NCBI GenBank assembly: GCA_028386065.3
Contig: JAKUCV010007782.1
Location: 199,154 to 263,153 of the forward strand
Direction: 5' to 3'
DNA: 64,000 nt
Source: Turnera subulata
Lineage: Eukaryota; Streptophyta; Magnoliopsida; Malpighiales; Passifloraceae
Shown: positions 25,065-45,635 of the stretch, in pieces
Position numbering within the stretch: the stretch's first letter is position 1
Layout: every line of letters begins with the position of its first letter
Made by a program: the position numbers and the translations under genes
The notes under the pieces: generated by a model
Told to the model about the DNA's origin: nothing
Database searches by the model: none
Seen by the model: the letters and a program-made list of their open reading frames with translations, nothing else

Positions 25065-25280
25065 TGTTATAAAACGTGTTATGAATGTCATTATCCTACC
25101 TAACAATACAGTACCCTCACCTCATTAGTTTTGCCTATTTATTGTACCATTTCTCTGGCTTGTGATGATGATGAATGAAAAAATGGACGATCTCTTGCTC
25201 ATCTTCCTCTTCTCTTTCTCCTGCCTTCCCTTTCTGTTTTCTTCATAAAACATAGCTCATTAATTACACAATTTATAACA
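25065..25280 (+). repeat. Copia element 5' LTR
   Basis: 216-bp repeat with TG...CA ends, preceded by TSD TGTCT. It differs from the 3' LTR at five sites, four of them transitions. Directly after it is CGTTATCAGCACGA, the position of the primer-binding site. Confidence 0.9.
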
Positions 25281-26293
25281 CGTTATCAGCACGAAGTTCT
25301 CTACCCGAGCAAACACCGTGCTTAGCCGATTTCCATGCAGAGCAGAGGATGAATAAAAATGAAGAAAAGCGAGGAAGGGATAAACAGTTGACCACCCCTA
25401 CGGTTACTGTTCACTCCGAAGCCTTCCGCGCCGCCGTGCACGACATCACCCTCCCCGGCGCCTTCCCCGTGCCGTCGCCGTCTCGCCGCCCCTTCAACGT
25501 CCTCTTCCGCTTCCTGACGCGCCGCCAGGAGGGGAAGACCCGCCGGCGACGCCCGTCAACCCGCATGGCTCGACGGGCCTACCTCACGCGACGAGCCGCC
25601 ACCCCCACTGCCCACCGTGACGTCGCCGTTCTGCTCCAGCCCGCGTCGTTGTCTCGCCCGTCGCCTCCACCTCTTCAGGCGTGCCCATGCTGCCGCCGTT
25701 TCTTCTCTTCCTCCCGCGAATGGCGACCCGACTGGGTCGGATCTATTTGTGCCGCCCCTCGCTGCAGCCGCTGCCGGCCACGTCTCCACCTCCCCGCCTT
25801 CTCGCGCCATGCCGCACCTCCTCTCCGTGTCGCTTGCTCGCCTCGCCGCCCCCCACAAGCCGCCGTTCGTCCGGGTTAGAGGGGAGTACCCGCTTGAGTG
25901 ACCGGGCCATGGTCACGGATCGGGTCGACCTACACGAATGGGTTGGGCCTGCTCCTGTGCGTGGGCCTGGGCTCCTAGGCCTTGGTCTGGGCTCATGCTG
26001 GGTTAGGGCTGGGCTTGGACTTGGCCCAGTCCGAAATTAAAAAAAAAACTGGAAAAATATATACTGAAAATTTTTTTTGGGAAAAATGAAATTAAAAGAA
26101 TATATATATATATATATATATACCGGAATAGTAACCGGATACTAGTATAATATATTATATATATTATTGCTGAAAGATTTATCGAGTAAGCATATTTTAC
26201 GTTTTTTTTTTATTTAAATTCCGATTGGGCTATTAAAAGGCCCATAGCATTTAATTTTCTTGCTTTTAATTTTATGTTTGGGCTCGTACAAGG
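25281..26293 (+). mobile_element. Copia internal region, GC-rich 5' leader
   Basis: Leader of the copia element. 25400-25900 is strongly GC-rich, with Pro/Arg/Ser-rich open frames in several phases and no recognisable domain; I treat these frames as composition artefacts. 25900-26040 has repeated GGGCTTGG/GGGCCT words and ends GGCCCAGTCCGAAATTAAA, a string also found in the neighbouring solo LTR near 27556-27576. A TA dinucleotide run lies at 26101-26122. The tail at 26220-26293 belongs to a GGGCT...AGGCCCAT repeat that is interrupted by the solo LTR. Confidence 0.6.
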
Positions 26294-31609: not shown

Positions 31610-33941
31610 ATTAAAACTTTGCATTATTTGTCAGTAAACTCCAAAGCTTTTCAATCTTCGAGGTTTTTGCTTTTGGAAAAGTTTCCCACTACTTTAATTA
31701 TTTTCCAATAATTCTGATCTTTTCCGACATGAGTGGCAGGAATAAGCCTAATATTGACATATATATTGCAGCCTGAAGCTAGCAGTTGAGTAATTGAAAC
31801 TTAACATATCCAGCCAGAAGCTGGAATGCACTAGCCTGGAGCTAGCAATTTTAAGTGTTTAGATACACAGCTTGCGCAGCCTGAAGCTGGCACCAACTTG
31901 AAGTTGGTTTCATGGATTTATTGTTCGGCATGACCGGATGGGCCATCCCGGGTTAATAATGATGCACGAAATTTATTGGATCATTCATTGAAAAACCAGA
32001 AGTTTTACAATCAATGAATTTCTATGAGTTTGTTTGCTGCGAAAGTTATTATACAGCCTTCCTAAGATGAGAATGGCCTAGTATCACCAGCAAGTTTGAG
32101 AATAGTTCAGGGACATAAACGCGGACTGATAAATCCGCGGTGTTAACCATCTAGGTAATTTTTACGATGCATCGACTAGATGGTCTATTGTGTAACGCAA
32201 GTTGGCATTGTGCGCACTAATTTAATAATTAAGCCACTTGCAGGTATATGTCCCTACTTATGTTTCTAGACTATATGTCTAGATAATGCTGGTATATTTC
32301 TTCAATGGATAATGTATATCATTGGAAATAAACCCAAACAGATCTGGGGGAACATTGACAATTGATTGTAGGACTATTGATGAAATATTACTGTTTGAGA
32401 AAATGGTATTTTATATGCAACAATACTTGAGTGCATCAAGCCAACATGATGTTATAAGATCCCCCATTTAATTGATTAATGGTCACATACTTAGTATCTC
32501 CCATCTTCGGACCATCGGTTATTTAGTATATTATGCTCCACCGCAGGGTTGTGAAATGGTCTTTTAAAGAAGATTGGGAATCTACGTTGGGTATGAATCT
32601 CCATATGTTACAAGAGTAATTGAAACCTATGATAGGAGATTGGAGATTCATTTATTGTAAGATTAGCTTATTAATTTGATGTTTTACCCAACATCAGGGG
32701 GAGGTAATAAGCAGCTGGATCAAAAGATTATTGAAATGATTTATCAATATCTAGTTTTTGATCCTCGAATAAATTAGTATGAACCTGAAGTTCAAAAGAT
32801 GATTCATTTGCAGGAAAATTGATATGCAATTGCCAGACACATTTAAATTAAGTATGACCATATACCAGCTGCAAATGCTCCTGTTTAGATTGATGTTCCT
32901 GAAGAACAATGTAAGTATGCAAATGAATCTATAGATTATACTCGGTTCCAAAAAGAAAAGAAATTCTCGGTAAAGAAAAAGGAGCAAAGTGATAAGATGG
33001 CCCCAATAAGGAAATAAGGCCTCCAGTAGAGGTTTTTTGAACTAAAAGTCCTCATGTAGAGGAAAATCCTCCAGAAGAGGTTTTCTGACACAAATTGATA
33101 AAGTTCCAGAAGTAACTCAGGTACCTGAAATAAATGGGCATGATGAGATCTCGATCACAGTGTCAGAAATAAGATGGAACCGACGTGAAATAACCGTCGA
33201 CGGAATACAATTTTTATTTATTATATAGCGCTAAATAAAATGAGGATCATGCACCTACTAATGAAAGTAGGCGTTGTATGATTGGCCAAAATATATGAGA
33301 TATAATTAAAGGCTGTGTTGGACTCGCATGTGGAGCGAGTAATTTTTCGGACCTGTAATTCGTACACCAGATGGTGTAAAATTTAACTGGTCGGTAAATG
33401 GGTATTTGTGCGGAAAATATAAATGAGATATAAAGCACGGTTGCACAAGGTTTTACCCGAACGACCTTATTTTAATCATGAGGAGATACACTCCCCTGTG
33501 GTGGATGCAATTATTTTGATAAGTCTGGCATTATATGAAAAGAATTAGAAATGCATCTAATGAATGCTTTTACAGCCTACTATGAATCCATAAGTTGTGA
33601 AATATACATGAAGATCCCTGAAGGATCCACGTTGCCTGAAGCAACTAATTCCCGGGAAATTACAAAAATTGAACTGAATTTAAATCATTTTGAGTATGGA
33701 TAAACATATTTATGATTGGAACTCCCGAATAAGCTTCCAAATACCGTGCTATTAGATTGGTCCTGGAGTACCCTGTTGAAGTGCAATTTATATTGCTAGT
33801 AACATAAAGCCTGAAGCTTTTGCCATAAGCTTATTGGCAAGATATGATTTTACTTTTATCTTTGGGATATAATAAGATATGGCATTATATTAACCTTGTA
33901 AGCCCAAAGAAAATGTAGTTAGTTTTTGTAGATGCAGGTCC
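31610..33941 (+). mobile_element. Copia interior, second hairpin block and decayed pol
   Basis: Further hairpins of the same type lie at 31810-31824, 31831-31845, 31877-31889, 31892-31908, 33020-33032, 33050-33062, 33068-33080, 33613-33627, 33631-33645 and 33806-33820. From about 33430 the plus strand resembles the copia reverse transcriptase (a VAQGF-like GTTGCACAAGGTTTTACCC, HSPV, and YMKIPEG/LPEA near 33603-33641), with many stops and small deletions. It is not translatable. Confidence 0.65.
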
Positions 33942-34513
33942 TGTTAGTTTGGAAAGGCTAAGCTAGAGGGGGGGTGAATAGCTTTAGTCGAATAAAAATG
34001 AAATAAGCAGGAATTAAACGCGGAATTAAAAGAATGAAGGACTCAAGAAATTTATCCTAGTTCACACACACTCTACTAGTATGGCTAATCCAGCCCTTCA
34101 AGTCTCACTTGAAGATTTCACTATCTACGTTAAGCTTACGGGTGCTTAACAAACCGTTACAACCTAGGAATTCTAGTCACAAGAATCCTAAACCCTGAAA
34201 GTTCAAGTCACATGAACTTCAGCTCTCTTGCTTGAAGATACCTCACTTCAAGACTTTCCACACAAGAAGATATACCCCTCTTCTTATGAATCTAACCAAG
34301 GGAACTAACCTCCCTCAAGGTGTATAACAACACAATAATCACTCAAACAAGAGGTCTCTCTCAAAGAGCAGATGTGAGTGTACAAATGAAGCTCTAAAAG
34401 GCAACTCTCAAATCCTCAATAGGATATTGGCTCAATTAAGATTTGATGAATGTATGAATTGAATGCATGTAAGTAGAGAGTTGATTAGTTTTGAAACACA
34501 GCTAAAAATGCTC

Positions 34514-34521
34514 AATTTATA
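34514..34521 (-). promoter_or_regulatory. Putative LTR TATA box
   Basis: Minus-strand TATAAATT within GCTATAAATTGAGC, about 95 bp downstream of the palindrome array in the element's own orientation. The position suits a U3 promoter. Transcription start not determined. Confidence 0.45.
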
Positions 34522-34615
34522 GCTTTGAAAAGTTATAGAGCCGTTTTAAATCCACCCAAAAACAGTCTTAAACAAAACATAGTGGGTGCTGAAAAGTTGT
34601 CTGCTATAACGGCAA

Positions 34616-35252
34616 AACATCGATGTTTTCCCTTTAAACATCGATGTTTTAGCCAGCAATTTTAAATTATTGTTCCAACGGCTAGTAGAACATCGATGTT
34701 TGTCTGGGGAACATCGATGTTTTCATTTTCAACATCGATGTTCTCTAAACCAACATCGATGTTCTCTTGCTTCGCAAAAAGGTGATAAAAGGAGTTATGC
34801 AAGAACATCGATGTTTCAGTTTCAAACATCGATGTTTTATGGCTACTGCCAAAATTCAACTTGAAGACAATTATCACAACATCGATGTTTAAATTCCCAA
34901 CATCGATGTTTTGAGCAACGGTCACAAGAACATCGATGTTTTATAGTCCAACATCGATGTTTTAGAGCTACTGCAAAATTCATTTTGAAACCAAATATCA
35001 GAACATCGATGTTGCCATTGGAACATCGATGTTTTTCCGCTTCTGCCAACTTTTGTAAAACCTTGGAAAAACAGAACATCGATGTTTAAAATCACAACAT
35101 CGATGTTTTGATCGGGCAGACCATTTTTAAGTGCAACGGTCATGAGAACATCGATGTTTGGGATGCCAACATCGATGTTCAGACCTTACTGCCCGTTTTG
35201 GAAGAAGTTTTAAGGCAGCAACATCGATGTCTAAACTTACTACATCGATGTT
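34616..35252. repeat. Phased palindrome array, AACATCGATGTT x 20
   Basis: Start positions: 34616, 34637, 34689, 34710, 34731, 34752, 34804, 34825, 34878, 34899, 34929, 34950, 35002, 35022, 35075, 35096, 35147, 35168, 35220, 35241. Eighteen are exact; the last two have one changed base. Within pairs the spacing is 21 bp (once 20). Pair-to-pair distance is about 73 bp, with one run of four at 21-bp steps and one shorter step of 51. Spacers of nine bases differ in sequence. Another pair with 21-bp spacing is in the element's interior at 35934 and 35955. Confidence 0.92.
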
Positions 35253-35643
35253 CATTATTTGAAAACACATTTTGTGATTGAAATGATGCTATGAAATGCA
35301 TGAGTAAAACTTGTTTTATTTTGAGCCAATGCCTAAGAGAAGTTGAGTGTTTTACCTTGTACAAAGGGGTCCTAACTTCTCTTGCTCTTTTTGCACTTTA
35401 ACTCTTGACTTCAATTCTTGAGCAAGTTGTTCTTGACTTCACTTCTTTTTGCTTGACATTGCCCTTGTACATTTTGAGTTCCTAACTCATCTTTCTCTTC
35501 TTGCTTGTAGCTTCAAATTGATCACATTGTTTGAGCTCTTGATCTTTGCTTGATTTCTTTTTGCTTCAAGGATGTCATCAATTGAGCCAAGGTTTGTCAT
35601 TATCAAAACCCTGAAATGAAACAAGGAGGCATGAGTTCTAACA

Positions 35644-36184
35644 ATTTCCCCCTTTTTGATAATGACAAACAACTAGAAGTATATGCCAATTTTTATGAGT
35701 TTAACATAAGAATAATTCCCCCTATGTATTTCAAATTGTGATTCCCCCTAACTTGGTGCATATACTTCTTCTTATCTTCCCCCTTTTGTCATTAGCAAAA
35801 AGAAATAATGAGAAGAAGAGGTTGAGAAGTGCTTATGTGAGAAATAGGTGGAGTTTTGAACAAGTGCAACATATTATCTACACTTATATATTTCAATATG
35901 CGCCAAAATAAAGGATGTTAGAAAACTTAGCTGAACATCGATGTTGTGATACTCAACATCGATGTATTGAGGCTTCTGCTCAAATTTTGAAGTTCTTCAT
36001 CATCCCTTTGTTCCCCCTATCTTTTTGCCTAAATGAGGGGTACCTACAAAAAAACAGCACTCATCCTTGCATTTCTACAAGAATTGATTAAGAACTTGGA
36101 TGCTTCTTTGGTCATTTGCTTGGAGCATCCGCTATCAAGGTACCAAAGTACACTTGATGCCTTCAAGTATACCTGCAAAACAAA
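35644..36184 (-). mobile_element. Untranslated 3' interior of the gag-only element
   Basis: Region between the gag stop and the 3' LTR. It holds the polypurine tract beside the LTR (35644-35657 in minus orientation) and a 21-bp-spaced palindrome pair at 35934-35966. No pol sequence. Confidence 0.7.
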
Positions 36185-37486
36185 TCAAGGGGATTTTGGT
36201 ACCCAAATCTTTTTGGGTCCTTGAGGGTTAGGAACATAGTAGTGATGAGCTTCTTCTTGAGCCCAATGTCTATGCCTAGTAAAGCAAACAGGAGCAATGT
36301 GTCCTATTCTGTTACAATAGTGGCAAATGACATTTGGATTGTGCATTCTTCTAGGTTGATAGTAATTAACATTTTGATTATGTCTATACATTCTAGTAAA
36401 CTTGTTTTCCTTAGGTATAACCCTATTTTGCCTAGGTTGAGCTATGTGTGTCCTAGGTTTTGTGTAAGGAGATTTTTCATTCCTACCATTGTAGGCATAC
36501 ATTTTAGCATAGTGAGCTCTTCCACTACTTGCATTTGGTTTGGCATTTTGAGCATATGACCTTCTATGATGAGTACATGATCTTGTGTGATAAGTAGAAG
36601 ATGAAGCACCATGTTTATGTGTCTTAGCATTAAGCACAGTAGGTTTGACATCATTTGACACATTAGATGCACCTAATCCTTCTTTTTGTGTTGGACTTCT
36701 TTGTTGTCCTAGAAGAAGATTAAGACTATCTCTACCATTAGTAAATTTCTCTAATGTTTTCCTCAAATCATCAACTTGATGCTTAAGAGATTCATTCTCT
36801 TTTCCCAATTCAACACAAGAACATTTATTTGAGGATATCGTCTCATTGAGTTCATTGCAAGACATATTAAGAGCATGCTTTTCTTTTTCAAGCTTATCAA
36901 TTTTGCTTAATAACTCATCCTTATCATTTGATAATAATTCTACATTATTTTCTAGGGTTTTGTTCTGTTTCTTTAAGTTCTTATTAACATTTGAGACAGA
37001 AATGAATTTACTATACAATTCACTAAATGCATCTTGCAGCTCTTCAAATGTATAATCATCATTCGAATTGGAGGTATTTACCTCTTCTGGAGATTCTTCC
37101 TTTGCCATGAAACAAGGGTTGACAGTCTCATCTTGCTTGCTGTCTGTTTCCTCATAGATGATTCCCAGCATTTCCCACATCTCCTTGGCTGTTGCGCAGT
37201 GCGAGATCATTTGATAGTCATTCGGATTGACTGCACATTGGAGCATGTGTATTGCCTTGGAGTGGTTTTTGATTCTTTGGATGTCATCTTTGTTGTACCC
37301 TGCTTCCGTCCTTGTCGGAACTTGAGCACCGTTCTTTATCACCAGCCAAGCTGCGAAATTATTGGCTTGGATGAAAACTCTCATCCTTTCCTTCCAATAT
37401 GCATAATTTGTCCCGTCAAAGAATGGTACCTGGGTAATGGATTGTCCTTCAATGATTCCTGCATACAAAAAATTTGAACAAGCCAT
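36185..37486 (-). CDS. Retrotransposon Gag polyprotein (copia/UBN2 type)
   Basis: Intact 433-codon ORF, ATG at 37486. The N-terminal part (QVPFFDGTNYAYWKERMRVF) is the DUF4219-type Gag start. It is followed by the UBN2 helical region (IKNHSKAIHMLQCAVNPNDY, AKEMWEMLG). A long coiled-coil stretch spans about residues 165-255 (NNVELLSNDKDELLSKIDKL). A basic linker leads to one CCHC zinc knuckle, CHYCNRIGHIAPVC, near residue 390. It packages element RNA into virus-like particles in the cytoplasm. It is the only protein of the element; the open frame argues for recent activity or selection on Gag function. Confidence 0.88.
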   Translation of the reverse strand: MACSNFLYAGIIEGQSITQVPFFDGTNYAYWKERMRVFIQANNFAAWLVIKNGAQVPTRTEAGYNKDDIQRIKNHSKAIHMLQCAVNPNDYQMISHCATAKEMWEMLGIIYEETDSKQDETVNPCFMAKEESPEEVNTSNSNDDYTFEELQDAFSELYSKFISVSNVNKNLKKQNKTLENNVELLSNDKDELLSKIDKLEKEKHALNMSCNELNETISSNKCSCVELGKENESLKHQVDDLRKTLEKFTNGRDSLNLLLGQQRSPTQKEGLGASNVSNDVKPTVLNAKTHKHGASSSTYHTRSCTHHRRSYAQNAKPNASSGRAHYAKMYAYNGRNEKSPYTKPRTHIAQPRQNRVIPKENKFTRMYRHNQNVNYYQPRRMHNPNVICHYCNRIGHIAPVCFTRHRHWAQEEAHHYYVPNPQGPKKIWVPKSP

Positions 37487-37526
37487 GGAAAATTTCTCTC
37501 AAACTGTTAAGTCTTTCAGAGAGTTA

Positions 37527-37541
37527 GGCTCCGCTACCAAT
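37527..37541 (-). other. Primer-binding site of the gag-only element
   Basis: Minus-strand TTGGTAGCGGAGCC directly after the LTR end. It resembles the initiator-methionine tRNA primer site of plant copia elements (TGGTATCAGAGC), with changes in the middle. Confidence 0.5.
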
Positions 37542-38938
37542 TGTTAGTTCGGAAAGGCTAAGCTAGAGGGGGGGTGAATAGCTTTAGTCGAATAAAAACG
37601 AAATAAGCAGGAATTAAATGCGGAATTAAAAGAATGAAGGACTCAAGAAATTTATCCTGGTTCACACACACTCTACTAGTGTGGCTAATCCAGCCCTTCA
37701 AGTCTCACTTGAAGATTTCACTATCTACGTTAAGCTTATGGGTGCTTAACAAACCGTTACAACCTAGGAATTCTAGTCACAAGAATCCTAAACCCTGAAA
37801 GTTCAAGTCACATGAACTTCAGCTCTCTTGCTTGAAGATACCTCACTTCAAGACTNNNNNNNNNNNNNNNNNNNNNNNNNNNNNNNNNNNNNNNNNNNNN
37901 NNNNNNNNNNNNNNNNNNNNNNNNNNNNNNNNNNNNNNNNNNNNNNNNNNNNNNNNNNNNNNNNNNNNNNNNNNNNNNNNNNNNNNNNNNNNNNNNNNNN
38001 NNNNNNNNNNNNNNNNNNNNNNNNNNNNNNNNNNNNNNNNNNNNNNNNNNNNNNNNNNNNNNNNNNNNNNNNNNNNNNNNNNNNNNNNNNNNNNNNNNNN
38101 NNNNNNNNNNNNNNNNNNNNNNNNNNNNNNNNNNNNNNNNNNNNNNNNNNNNNNNNNNNNNNNNNNNNNNNNNNNNNNNNNNNNNNNNNNNNNNNNNNNN
38201 NNNNNNNNNNNNNNNNNNNNNNNNNNNNNNNNNNNNNNNNNNNNNNNNNNNNNNNNNNNNNNNNNNNNNNNNNNNNNNNNNNNNNNNNNNNNNNNNNNNN
38301 NNNNNNNNNNNNNNNNNNNNNNNNNNNNNNNNNNNNNNNNNNNNNNNNNNNNNNNNNNNNNNNNNNNNNNNNNNNNNNNNNNNNNNNNNNNNNNNNNNNN
38401 NNNNNNNNNNNNNNNNNNNNNNNNNNNNNNNNNNNNNNNNNNNNNNNNNNNNNNNNNNNNNNNNNNNNNNNNNNNNNNNNNNNNNNNNNNNNNNNNNNNN
38501 NNNNNNNNNNNNNNNNNNNNNNNNNNNNNNNNNNNNNNNNNNNNNNNNNNNNNNNNNNNNNNNNNNNNNNNNNNNNNNNNNNNNNNNNNNNNNNNNNNNN
38601 NNNNNNNNNNNNNNNNNNNNNNNNNNNNNNNNNNNNNNNNNNNNNNNNNNNNNNNNNNNNNNNNNNNNNNNNNNNNNNNNNNNNNNNNNNNNNNNNNNNN
38701 NNNNNNNNNNNNNNNNNNNNNNNNNNNNNNNNNNNNNNNNNTTTTGCTTGACATTGCCCTTGTACATTTTGAGTTCCTAACTCATCTTTCTCTTCTTGCT
38801 TGTAGCTTCAAATTGATCACATTGTTTGAGCTCTTGATCTTTGCTTGATTTCTTTTTGCTTCAAGGATGTCATCAATTGAGCCAAGGTTTGTCATTATCA
38901 AAACCCTGAAATGAAACAAGGAGGCATGAGTTCTAACA
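37542..38938 (-). repeat. 5' LTR of the gag-only element, broken by assembly gap
   Basis: Matches 33942-35643. It is known only at its ends (37542-37855 and 38742-38938). The missing part corresponds to about 34257-35446 of the other LTR, which contains the whole palindrome array. Confidence 0.85.
37856..38741. other. Assembly gap (886 N)
   Basis: Run of N. By comparison with the intact LTR about 1190 bp should be here, so the gap length is probably an estimate. Open frames reported across it are meaningless. Confidence 0.98.
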
Positions 38939-38943
38939 GGTCC

Positions 38944-39335
38944 TTTATTTGATCCACATAAAGCACAGACGGACATCTGCTACAACTTTACACATGAAAT
39001 TGCTATGTCATCGGGACTATAAAAACGAGATGGCAAGAAAGATGCTCCAACAACAAATAATGGAGATAGTGTTGCCCACATTGTCCAATTAAAGTAATGG
39101 TGTATCAAAAGTAATCAGACAAAGCACACGTCACCAGGAGTTGAGAAGGATGATTGGCATGCAACAACTTCAAGAAATCAAGAGAGGTCAAAATGAGGGG
39201 GAGTAGAATACGCACTGCACTCTTTTTTCCTTCACCAAGTTTTTATCCCACTGGGTTTTTCTTGGTAAGGTTTTTAACGAGGCAGTTCTCCCTAAAGCGT
39301 ATTTTATACAAAGTACAATGACATTCAAGGGGGAG
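38944..39335 (+). mobile_element. Copia RNase H remnant, 3' UTR and polypurine tract
   Basis: Continuation of the copia element after the nested insertion. It starts with DPHKAQTD-like sequence, part of the RNase H domain, with stops soon after. It ends in AAGGGGGAG (39327-39335) next to the 3' LTR, the normal position of a polypurine tract. Confidence 0.7.
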
Positions 39336-39551
39336 TGTTATAAAACATGTTATGAATGTCGTTATCCTACCTAACAATACAGTACCCTCATCTCATTAGT
39401 TTTGCCTATTTATTGTACCATTTCTCTGGCTTGTGATGATGATGAATGAAAAAATGGACGAGCTCTTGCTCATCTTCCTCTTCTCTTTCTCCTGCCTTCC
39501 CTTTCTGTTTTCTTTATAAAACATAGCTCATTAATTACACAATTTATAACA
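39336..39551 (+). repeat. Copia element 3' LTR
   Basis: 216-bp partner of 25065-25280, followed by TSD TGTCT at 39552-39556. Confidence 0.9.
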
Positions 39552-39556
39552 TGTCT

Positions 39557-41656
39557 ATTGTTATTGGAGATTGATATCTCCAGTCAAATTAACGAGCCCA
39601 AACGATATAAACCCTATAGGATGTCGAACCCATCAAGTGGAAACGAGCCAAACTCGTAAAAACCCATGAAGATGCACTCAGGCCCACTCTGTAGTCCAAC
39701 CCCCTGAATGGAAGGGTCCGGAACCTGGCCCATATGGATGACAATTGGGCGAGCAATTGGATAAAAAGGAACCTCTTCTCAACCGTTAGATTGGAACGGC
39801 ACGAAACAATCGACATTGTGGGAACGGTTCACATATAATCTACCCAAGGAGAAATAGAAAACATAATTTACTTAGGACAAACTTAGCCTCCCACTTTTCT
39901 CTTGTATTCTTTCCACCATATTGTAATTATTCCTTAAGTTTCAATAAAATTTCACATTTCTATTTCTAGTGTAAGATCAGATACATAAATTTAAACATTT
40001 GATTTGTTTCTTTCTTGTTAAATGTCATGCTATGAATGTCTTTTCTACAAAGGTAAATTGTTAAGTGTTTAATGTTAGATTAACACCATCCGGAAGGAGG
40101 AGATGAATGGAATCTATATGTTGCTTTTTTTCCTTCACATTTTTCTTTGGCAATGCATTTTTTTCCTCCCATTTTTAATTATTTTTTGGGAAAAATTGTT
40201 TATTGGCCAACAAAAAAATTAGCCAACATTTCTTAGCAAAAATGTTAACAAGCCTCCTGGTTGAAACACACATTCGAATATTTGCACAGCATCATCAAGT
40301 AATTGTGAGAAAGAAAGGTCAAGGTTAGGTTCTATTCCGTGGCATAATCATGCATGTTATGAGTAATTAAGGTCACGCGTTATTATGCGGTTATTGTCAG
40401 AGAACATATTTAGTCTTTTCCAAATTGGGTCTTCAATTTGATTCTTTCTATAGTAAAGACTAAAGAGTTGTCTTTTTTTTTTTCCGAAAAAAGTTGTCTT
40501 ATTGTTCCAGAGGTTCCAAAGTTTTTATATCTTTCCTGGGTTTGCAAAATTCATACACAGCCATATCTCGACATGCTGGTGCAGAGTAGTTAACAGTCAC
40601 AGCATATATGGGGTAAGCTTATGGTCCCTACTTCCATTAATTGGAGAACAAATGGAAGAATAATTAAACTTTGTTAGTAGTTTTATTTTGATCTTCTAGC
40701 TAGCTTTAGAACCCATTTTTTTTCTGTCTCATTAGCACATTACTGACACAACATTCTATATTTGAACAATGAGCAGATAACTGACACGAAAAATTTCAGT
40801 CTCTTGTTGACAGATATCATGTGCCCACTTACTCACTCAGAAAAAGAGGTCATCAGAGCAACTTGTATATGAATCATTACTGTCTAATAATACGCGTAAC
40901 TTGCTTTGGAAAAATTATAGTAACACCCAAGAATGACAAACTCGGATTCTCTACATGTGAAATCTCCAACACATGTCTGCGTCCTTCGAAATTAAACCAG
41001 AGAAGGCAAACAAACACACCCTTTTATCTTCCATCTTTTGGGGTAATAATTGAGCAAATGCAGGAGAGGCGTTTTAGTAAATTTGATGGGATAGGCAAGG
41101 AGCCAAGGACTTAACAACATGGCCTCATTACAAAAGTTAACCTGAATCAAAAACAATATTATATAATTAATAAATATAAGTTGATATAAACTCTGAAGAA
41201 GCTTCGTGCCATATTTCTTCTAGCTCAAGAAGTAAAGAAAAGACAAGACAAGAAGGTATTAAACTTTACCTCCGTATACTCTCTGTCTCTTTATAGGTCC
41301 TGCGGCTTTATATATTTTGAGAACAACAAATATCTTATATACAACCTCTAGAGGATTTGGAAACTAAATTTCCACTTCTGTGTTGGTTTCTTTGTGCATG
41401 GTACTCTTTATCTAATTCCATCTGGATTACATACTTCATCTATACCTAATCATTCTAATACATCTCTTTCCCCAGCTCTCCTATTAGTTTTAGCCTTTAG
41501 GGCATCAACTGGTTTTTAGAATTATCTTTTATGCAGTTTTTTTTCCTACTTTATTATATAACGACAGGAGAACTTCTTTTTCATTGCATGTTCTTTTCAG
41601 TTTATCCCAGAGAAGACAGAAAAAGCAGAAGAAAGGAACCTGGATTAATTGTTATG
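39557..41656. other. Intergenic / promoter region of the MADS-box gene
   Basis: AT-rich DNA with no coding sequence I can support. The last part is the 5' UTR and promoter of the MADS-box gene. No terminal repeats were found. Confidence 0.5.
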
Positions 41657-44669: not shown

Positions 44670-45635
44670 ATGGATCTAGAAGCAGAGGAGCTCCAATTTT
44701 TAAGCATACCCGATATTCTAAAAGAATCGATCTCCATCCCGAAGCAGTCACCCAAGACCTTCTACCTAATAACCCTAGCCTTGATCTTCCCTCTCTCTTT
44801 CGCCATATTAGCCCACTCCCTCTTCACCCACCCAATCTTGACCCAACTCGAAGACCACCCTTCCCCGGATCCGGACCAGACCCGCCACGAATGGACCCTC
44901 CTCCTGGTCTTCCAGTTCTGCTACCTCATCTTCCTCTTCGCCTTCTCCCTCCTCTCCACCGCCGCCGTCGTCTTCACCGTCGCCTCCCTCTACACCGGCA
45001 AGCCCGTCTCCTTCTCCTCCACCATGGCCGCCATCCCCAAGGTCTTCAAGCGCCTCTTCGTCACCTTCCTCTGGGTCTCCCTCCTCATGCTCGTCTACAA
45101 CTCCGTCTTCCTCGTCCTCCTCATCATCCTCATCATTGCCGTCGACACCCAGAGCACCCTCCTCGTCTTCCTCTGCCTCGTCCTGATTTTCGTCCTCTTC
45201 CTCTTCGTCCACGTCTACATAACCGCTCTCTGGCACTTGGCCAGTGTCGTGTCGGTGCTCGAGCCCGTCTACGGGTTCGCGGCCATGAGGAAGAGCTACG
45301 AGCTCCTCAAGGGGAAGACCCGCGTCGCGGCGGTGCTCGTCTTCGGGTACCTCTCGATTTGCGGCCTCATCGCTGTGGCCTTCGGGTCGGTGGTGGTCCA
45401 CGGCGGGGATAAGTACGGGGTCTTCACCAGGATTGTTGTCGGTGGGTTCTTGGTCGGGGTTCTGGTGATTGTGAATCTGGTGGGCTTGCTGGTGCAAAGT
45501 GTTTTCTACTACGTCTGCAAGAGCTACCACCATCAAGGGATTGATAAGACCGCTCTTCACGAGCAGCTGGGTGGGTATCTAGGGGAGTATGTGCCCTTGA
45601 AGAGCAGCATTCAAATGGAGAACCTGGATGTTTAA
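44670..45635 (+). CDS. Plant polytopic membrane protein of unknown function (At1g31130-like)
   Basis: Single-exon ORF of 321 residues. A hydrophilic N-terminus (LEAEELQFLSIPDILKESI) is followed by about six hydrophobic segments (FYLITLALIFPLSFAILAHS, LLVFQFCYLIFLFAFSLLST, LMLVYNSVFLVLLIILIIAV, LLVFLCLVLIFVLFLFVHVY, then two near residues 228 and 255). A conserved-looking loop reads LEPVYGFAAMRKSYELLKGK. It fits the plant family that includes Arabidopsis At1g31130 and At4g19950, with no assigned biochemical role that I know. Codons from about 44800 to 45440 are strongly C-ending, much richer in GC than the surroundings. This composition produces a long acidic antisense frame that I treat as an artefact. 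Confidence 0.87.
   Translation: MDLEAEELQFLSIPDILKESISIPKQSPKTFYLITLALIFPLSFAILAHSLFTHPILTQLEDHPSPDPDQTRHEWTLLLVFQFCYLIFLFAFSLLSTAAVVFTVASLYTGKPVSFSSTMAAIPKVFKRLFVTFLWVSLLMLVYNSVFLVLLIILIIAVDTQSTLLVFLCLVLIFVLFLFVHVYITALWHLASVVSVLEPVYGFAAMRKSYELLKGKTRVAAVLVFGYLSICGLIAVAFGSVVVHGGDKYGVFTRIVVGGFLVGVLVIVNLVGLLVQSVFYYVCKSYHHQGIDKTALHEQLGGYLGEYVPLKSSIQMENLDV

Follow-up and report, generated by a model that had tools for sequence, protein, structure and literature searches.

The 64,000-nt window (the whole stretch of DNA that was analysed) contains on its minus strand a Ty1/copia-type LTR element, and the 3' LTR of this element carries an array of twenty palindromes (Table 1). Between the LTRs lies a 1.9-kb interior, too small for the remaining pol genes, in which gag was the only ORF of at least 150 aa. 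The gag ORF is open though shorter than its relatives. It aligns with them at both ends; by our reading of that alignment it lacks the first zinc knuckle and retains the region of the second. A protein search with gag returned ten relatives, the closest of them matching at 52% over part of the length. Judged by this coding content, the element is a non-autonomous derivative.

Table 1. Features of the element that carries the palindrome array; positions are those of the window, strand "." marks features listed on neither strand.
Feature	Positions	Strand	Basis
LTR element, Ty1/copia-type, gag-only	33942-38938	-	LTR comparison and ORFs
Target site duplication GGACC, 5' LTR end	38939-38943	.	read by eye
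5' LTR, its middle an 886-N assembly gap (37856-38741)	37542-38938	-	sequence comparison
Poly-C integrase-signal-like run, 5' LTR	37568-37574	-	
5' LTR/PBS junction, ATTGG TAGCGGAGC	37528-37541	-	
gag ORF, 433 aa, copia-type	36185-37486	-	Pfam Retrotran_gag_2, 4.6e-07
Protease start WYLDSGCSKQMT, no further pol	36110-36145	-	translated by eye
Four more PPT octamers AGGGGGAA (low ends 35716, 35742, 35777, 36011)	35716-36018	-	motif scan
Interior (linker-domain) pair of AACATCGATGTT, 21 bp apart	35934-35966	-	approximate-match scan
Terminal PPT octamer AGGGGGAA, then AT/TG of the 3' LTR	35646-35653	-	motif scan
Inverted repeat around the PPT/LTR junction, 18-bp arms, 1 mismatch	35591-35671	-	
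3' LTR, TGTTAG...CTAACA, 1702 bp, contains the array	33942-35643	-	sequence comparison
Palindrome array, 20 copies of AACATCGATGTT in 10 pairs	34616-35252	-	approximate-match scan
TATA box TATAAATT, 94 bp after the array	34514-34521	-	motif scan
Poly-C integrase-signal-like run, near the 3' LTR end	33968-33974	-	
Target site duplication GGACC, 3' LTR end	33937-33941	.	read by eye

The two LTRs differed at only 6 of 511 comparable positions, all of them transitions, which indicates that the element moved recently. The LTR substitution rate in common use is 1.3e-8 per site and year; at this rate the insertion would be about half a million years old or less. We observed that the assembly gap in the 5' LTR falls where the array would be expected in that copy. 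In maize Sirevirus exemplars, runs of N cover the same palindrome-rich region (PMC5311732).

In the neighbourhood of the element, two stretches of about 223 bp each (39336-39558 and 25065-25286) are 97% identical and have the look of pieces from a different LTR family. The first of them adjoins a AGGGGGAG octamer at 39328. The plus-strand AGGGGGAG octamers at 39196 and 39328 were considered as parts of the element and dropped, since they lie outside it. The window also contains a 321-aa ORF (44670-45635) that marks it as DNA of a flowering plant: the nearest named matches among the best 120 of 709 are from Jatropha, Hevea and Ricinus and share 84-85% identity with the ORF. All three genera belong to the Malpighiales.

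The hallmarks given for Sireviruses in PMC2829016 comprise multiple AGGGGGAG octamers ahead of the 3' LTR, an AT/TG junction, an inverted repeat at the terminal PPT, a CA/ATTGG junction followed by a short PBS, a poly-C run near the LTR end and a TATA box. Thirteen elements also have palindromic repeated motifs (RM), which precede the TATA box. In our element five identical AGGGGGAA octamers lie no more than about 375 bp from the 3' LTR, compared to 0.05 expected under a Markov model and a maximum of two in 2,000 simulations. The terminal octamer lies 10 bp before the LTR, as in Sireviruses, and its last base is A instead of G; A-ending octamers have been reported for Tnd-1 and ToRTL1 (PMC2829016). 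The AT/TG attachment site is present. The inverted repeat, complementary at 17 of 18 positions, has a left arm that borders the PPT and ends 10 bp before the LTR and a right arm that begins 36 bp inside it. At the 5' end the CA/ATTGG junction is exact, and the PBS TAGCGGAGC agrees by eye with the Sirevirus TATCAGAGC at seven of nine positions. Each LTR has a CCCCCCC run 26 bp before its end, the comparison covering the poly-C run of the 19-bp motif. Placed by these motifs, pol being absent, the element is best filed as Sirevirus-type, near Tnd-1.

A scan of the window with up to two mismatches produced 26 matches to AACATCGATGTT: twenty in the array, two in the interior pair, and four scattered ones, each with two mismatches. 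In 100 shuffled versions of the window the mean number of matches was 3.29 and the maximum was 8, so that none reached 26, while the number of exact copies expected in the whole window was 0.004 by a second-order Markov estimate. AT repeats aside, no other 10-bp palindrome occurred more than twice in the window. A sequence-only reading of this DNA had described twenty copies, two of them with one changed base, set in pairs whose starts are 21 bp apart (once 20). The scan agreed in full, with 18 exact copies and two carrying one mismatch, and with nine pairs at 21 bp and the tenth at 20 bp.

The start-to-start gaps, in array order, were 21, 52, 21, 21, 21, 52, 21, 53, 21, 30, 21, 52, 20, 53, 21, 51, 21, 52 and 21 bp. 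The value 21 accounts for ten of the 19 gaps (nine within pairs and one between two pairs), 20 for one, 51-53 for seven and 30 for one. From pair to pair the starts advanced by 73, 42, 73, 74, 51, 73, 73, 72 and 73 bp. The recurrence of about 73 bp, proposed earlier, therefore holds within 1 bp for seven of the nine steps and fails for two: the step of 42 bp, where four sites follow each other directly (34689-34763), and the step of 51 bp, where the linker is short.

The claim that the spacers vary while their length is kept stood up well. Among eleven 9-bp spacers (ten from the array and one from the interior pair, the single 8-bp spacer being left out), no two were identical; their mean pairwise identity was 0.35 compared to 0.28 expected from composition. 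The 10-bp core ACATCGATGT, on the other hand, was unchanged in all 22 copies of the array and the interior pair, and the three site substitutions in total all fell at position 1 or 12. The central CpG of the site was likewise retained in 22 of 22 copies, while the remainder of the array was poor in CpG, with 7 among 397 bases (observed/expected 0.45). For the array as a whole the observed/expected ratio was 1.22 at a GC content of 37%.

We also noted a TATA-like word, CTATAAAA, on the minus strand at 34946, which falls within the array, inside the spacer of one pair. AACGG words, which resemble MYB-type sites (compare the core of the M-phase MSA element), occur on the plus strand at 34608, 34677, 34917 and 35135, in linkers and beside the array. 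Since some of those linkers share descent, the count of these words is no independent evidence.

The history of the array was traced in the DNA between the sites. Five of the 28 pairs of array linkers aligned with z >3 (32 of 40 positions identical in the best case), as did three of the 17 comparisons in which a flank of the interior pair took part, and the stretches 34800-34912 and 34925-35035 are 82% identical. These linker matches indicate that at least part of the array arose by duplication, which appears to be old enough for the intervening DNA to have diverged. Of the eight array linkers, those that begin at 34764 and 35180 gave no z >3 against any other linker, and neither did the lower flank of the interior pair, so that the alignments do not demonstrate descent from one unit for the whole of the array. 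A simple recent tandem duplication with identical spacers, named in the sequence-only reading as the finding that would speak against it, was not found, and the growth by duplication that we did see was partial.

For the duplicated blocks 34804-34911 and 34929-35034, none of the 48 site positions had changed compared to 18 of the 58 others (P 7e-6). The alignment of the blocks was anchored on the sites and the 9-bp spacers could hardly be aligned, so that the figure for linker positions alone, 8 of 40 changed (P 0.0012 against the sites), is the safer one. By these counts the sites are shown to be conserved more strongly than the DNA between them.

The interior pair, exact at 35934 and with one change at 35955, had been offered as evidence that the arrangement is more than a tandem expansion within the LTR. 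We could not uphold this argument. Because the upper flank of the pair resembles array linkers (at best 28 of 37 aligned positions, z 4.9), the pair looks like a copy of an array unit and hence is not independent of the array.

The spacing was also said to lie near whole helical turns, and the measurement bears this out: the twenty sites nearly share one helical phase, with R of 0.944 at 10.40 bp (0.948 on a finer grid). The observed R was reached in none of 20,000 simulations with all gaps free and in none of 20,000 with the pair gaps kept and the longer gaps free. A null modelled on tandem duplication, in which only three lengths vary, gave P of 0.00155 in 20,000 simulations; the ranges of the simulated gaps (14-28, 42-62 and 22-37 bp) were our own choice. 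The latter P is the fair figure among the three nulls. Several units share descent, which leaves three lengths as the effective basis of the phase result. The lengths of 21, about 52 and 30 bp jointly match whole turns better than chance, and the individual gaps are not separate witnesses.

Similar arrangements elsewhere were sought by pattern, and a search for spaced palindromes returned one viral contig and 43 bacterial stretches. In the viral contig the match lies within a phage-like reading frame, and we rejected the contig as a relative; its likeness to an array linker was put down to chance in a coding context. In 23 of the 43 bacterial stretches all spacings are multiples of 21 bp, built on the ACATCGATGT palindrome. 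For 15 of these 23, those with at least three sites, one open frame spans all sites, and DIDV/NIDV-type 7-residue repeats appear in nine of the 15 frames as printed. We took the bacterial 21-bp repeats for unrelated and made no use of them. BLAST matched the element to eight of the 44 loci, seemingly on account of the palindromes themselves. A search with the PPT/LTR junction pattern gave three viral contigs, which were unrelated on inspection, and the gag protein of a relative had no match in the viral loci. A literature search with the letters of the palindrome returned, among the matches listed, no paper on a plant retrotransposon by title.

The array sits in U3, and the distance of about 95 bp earlier given between it and the TATA-like box proved to be 94 bp. 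We consider it somewhat probable that the array is a cis-regulatory upstream promoter region, in which RM boxes serve a dimeric host factor on one face of the DNA. The position, the symmetry, the copy number and the site-specific constraint are the reasons why we favour such a protein-binding promoter array over an RNA role or a neutral origin. Each 12-bp dyad would most likely be bound by a symmetric (dimeric) host DNA-binding protein. Pairs spaced by two turns, together with linkers of about five turns, would bring the sites to nearly the same face of the helix, where neighbouring dimers could bind cooperatively; cooperative binding would then drive or gate transcription of the element. For RM boxes a common binding factor was not found according to PMC2829016, and a literature search for plant transcription factors with ATCGAT gave no relevant match by title. 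Both spacing and constraint were read here from one copy of the family.

A narrower version of this proposal is offered tentatively, as something possible. It would have the ATCGAT palindromes, at steps of two and five turns, form a lattice on one face that is kept by selection on distance, not on the sequence in between, and occupied by cooperating plant dimers, and it would make the ATCGAT branch, Tnd-1 included, distinct from the CGG-CCG Sireviruses.

The palindromes might instead act in RNA, which we regard as rather unlikely. The U3 array at the transcript end would form tandem hairpins with a 12-bp stem and a 9-base loop, which would aid the RNA of the element or, to its disadvantage, feed host small-RNA silencing. 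The array did fold at -259 kcal/mol compared to -148 for shuffles (z -15, 20 shuffles), and each of the five pairs tested, of eleven, formed a hairpin with 12 to 14 bp and an energy between -14.4 and -16.0 kcal/mol. Any array of palindromes folds well, however, so that the folding energy adds nothing of its own to the case. For none of the three site substitutions had the partner site changed to compensate (pairing judged by eye), and hairpins leave unexplained both why the 51-53 bp steps are in phase and why each site is symmetric in itself. Still, palindrome-rich LTR regions of maize Sireviruses are hotspots of small RNA (PMC5311732 and PMC10760457, reporting Bousios 2016); because these hotspots cover the palindromes, host silencing would be a likely consequence of the array even if it is not the selected function.

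The regular phase near 10.4 bp across 637 bp would also suit a chromatin element that positions or excludes nucleosomes, or acts like an insulator; the nucleosome or a bound lattice, not transcriptional activation, would then dictate the spacing. The cluster of Su(Hw) sites in Drosophila gypsy is a precedent for an element that works in a like way. We consider this explanation unlikely, as a site shortly before the TATA box suits a promoter array equally and positioning alone should need no conserved 12-bp sequence. Quite improbable, in our estimate, is that the array has no function of its own and was left behind by tandem duplications in an LTR that changes fast. Such growth did contribute to the array, as the linker matches and the 82%-identical stretches described above suggest, but drift would not be expected to spare 12-bp islands, and neither the unchanged sites of the duplicated blocks nor the 9-bp spacers, all different, fit such an origin. 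Translation of the array, the 21-bp step being seven codons, is extremely improbable. The palindrome has no stop codon in any frame, and the longest open stretch across the array reaches 92 aa, but the steps of 20, 52, 53 and 73 bp break the frame, and the 92-codon frame (34665-34940) had no protein match among 720 candidates with E limited to 10.

If the promoter reading is right, the 10-bp core, kept in every copy and mostly repeated two turns apart, offers a clean bait for the protein that reads it and a simple, testable prediction on spacing. Apparently new are the two-turn pairing, the common helical phase and the site-specific constraint. Neither the matches listed by our literature searches nor the main text of PMC2829016, where the words 'helical' and 'spacing' stand once each in the reference list, showed a description of how RM boxes are spaced or phased on the helix; it may be given in the supplement of that paper or in the 2016 Genome Research paper, and thus may already be in print.

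Among known systems, TR-GAG elements are non-autonomous LTR elements that carry gag only. Our element resembles them in its two LTRs, its PBS-like and PPT regions and a gag gene without reverse transcriptase or integrase; it differs in that its gag is shortened. Tnt1 of tobacco, which had been cited as the precedent for the array, is not a Sirevirus, and its U3 boxes are fewer and of another sequence. Tnt1 does have a symmetric box of regulatory type close to its promoter, box I (PMC2829016), and in this the two are alike. We find Tnt1 a weaker fit than the RM boxes of Sireviruses, and above all those of Tnd-1, which are the closer precedent.

RM boxes are known from Osr10, Inga, HOPIE, OPIE-2 and others (Bousios et al. 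2010, PMC2829016). They are described there as palindromes in at least eight copies that begin 200-400 bp into the LTR, precede the TATA box and are similar within one element while their flanks diverge. The array has the same build, with its twenty copies starting 391 bp into the LTR and ending 94 bp before the TATA box, and in our reading it is a further case of this known type. It is larger than the published examples: the 3' LTR counts run from 3 to 14 (Table 3 of PMC2829016), all exceeded by the twenty copies here, and the arrays span 300-500 bp compared to 637 bp. Sirevirus RM boxes have a CGG-CCG core and form a CpG island (PMC2829016), whereas the core here is ATCGAT and the GC content of 37% does not make an island. 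Copies in the linker domain are said to accompany an envelope gene only (PMC2829016). The interior pair departs from this rule, no ORF of envelope size having been found; the element being deleted, an ancestral envelope gene may have existed. Pairing and helical phase, both seen here, are not mentioned for RM boxes in the main text of PMC2829016.

Tnd-1, a tobacco Sirevirus, is named as the sole exception to the CGG-CCG core (PMC2829016). Its RM, ACAATCGATTGT, has the ATCGAT core that is also found in AACATCGATGTT, flanked by ACA/TGT compared to AAC/GTT here. According to the same paper it has eight copies compared to twenty, no copies in the linker domain and no conserved TATA box, which our element does have. 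Both LTRs are long (1.59 kb in Tnd-1, PMC2829016, and 1.70 kb here). Judged by these motifs, the departures from the Sirevirus norm that the element has in common with Tnd-1 are three: the RM core, the A-ending PPT octamers and the absence of a CpG island.
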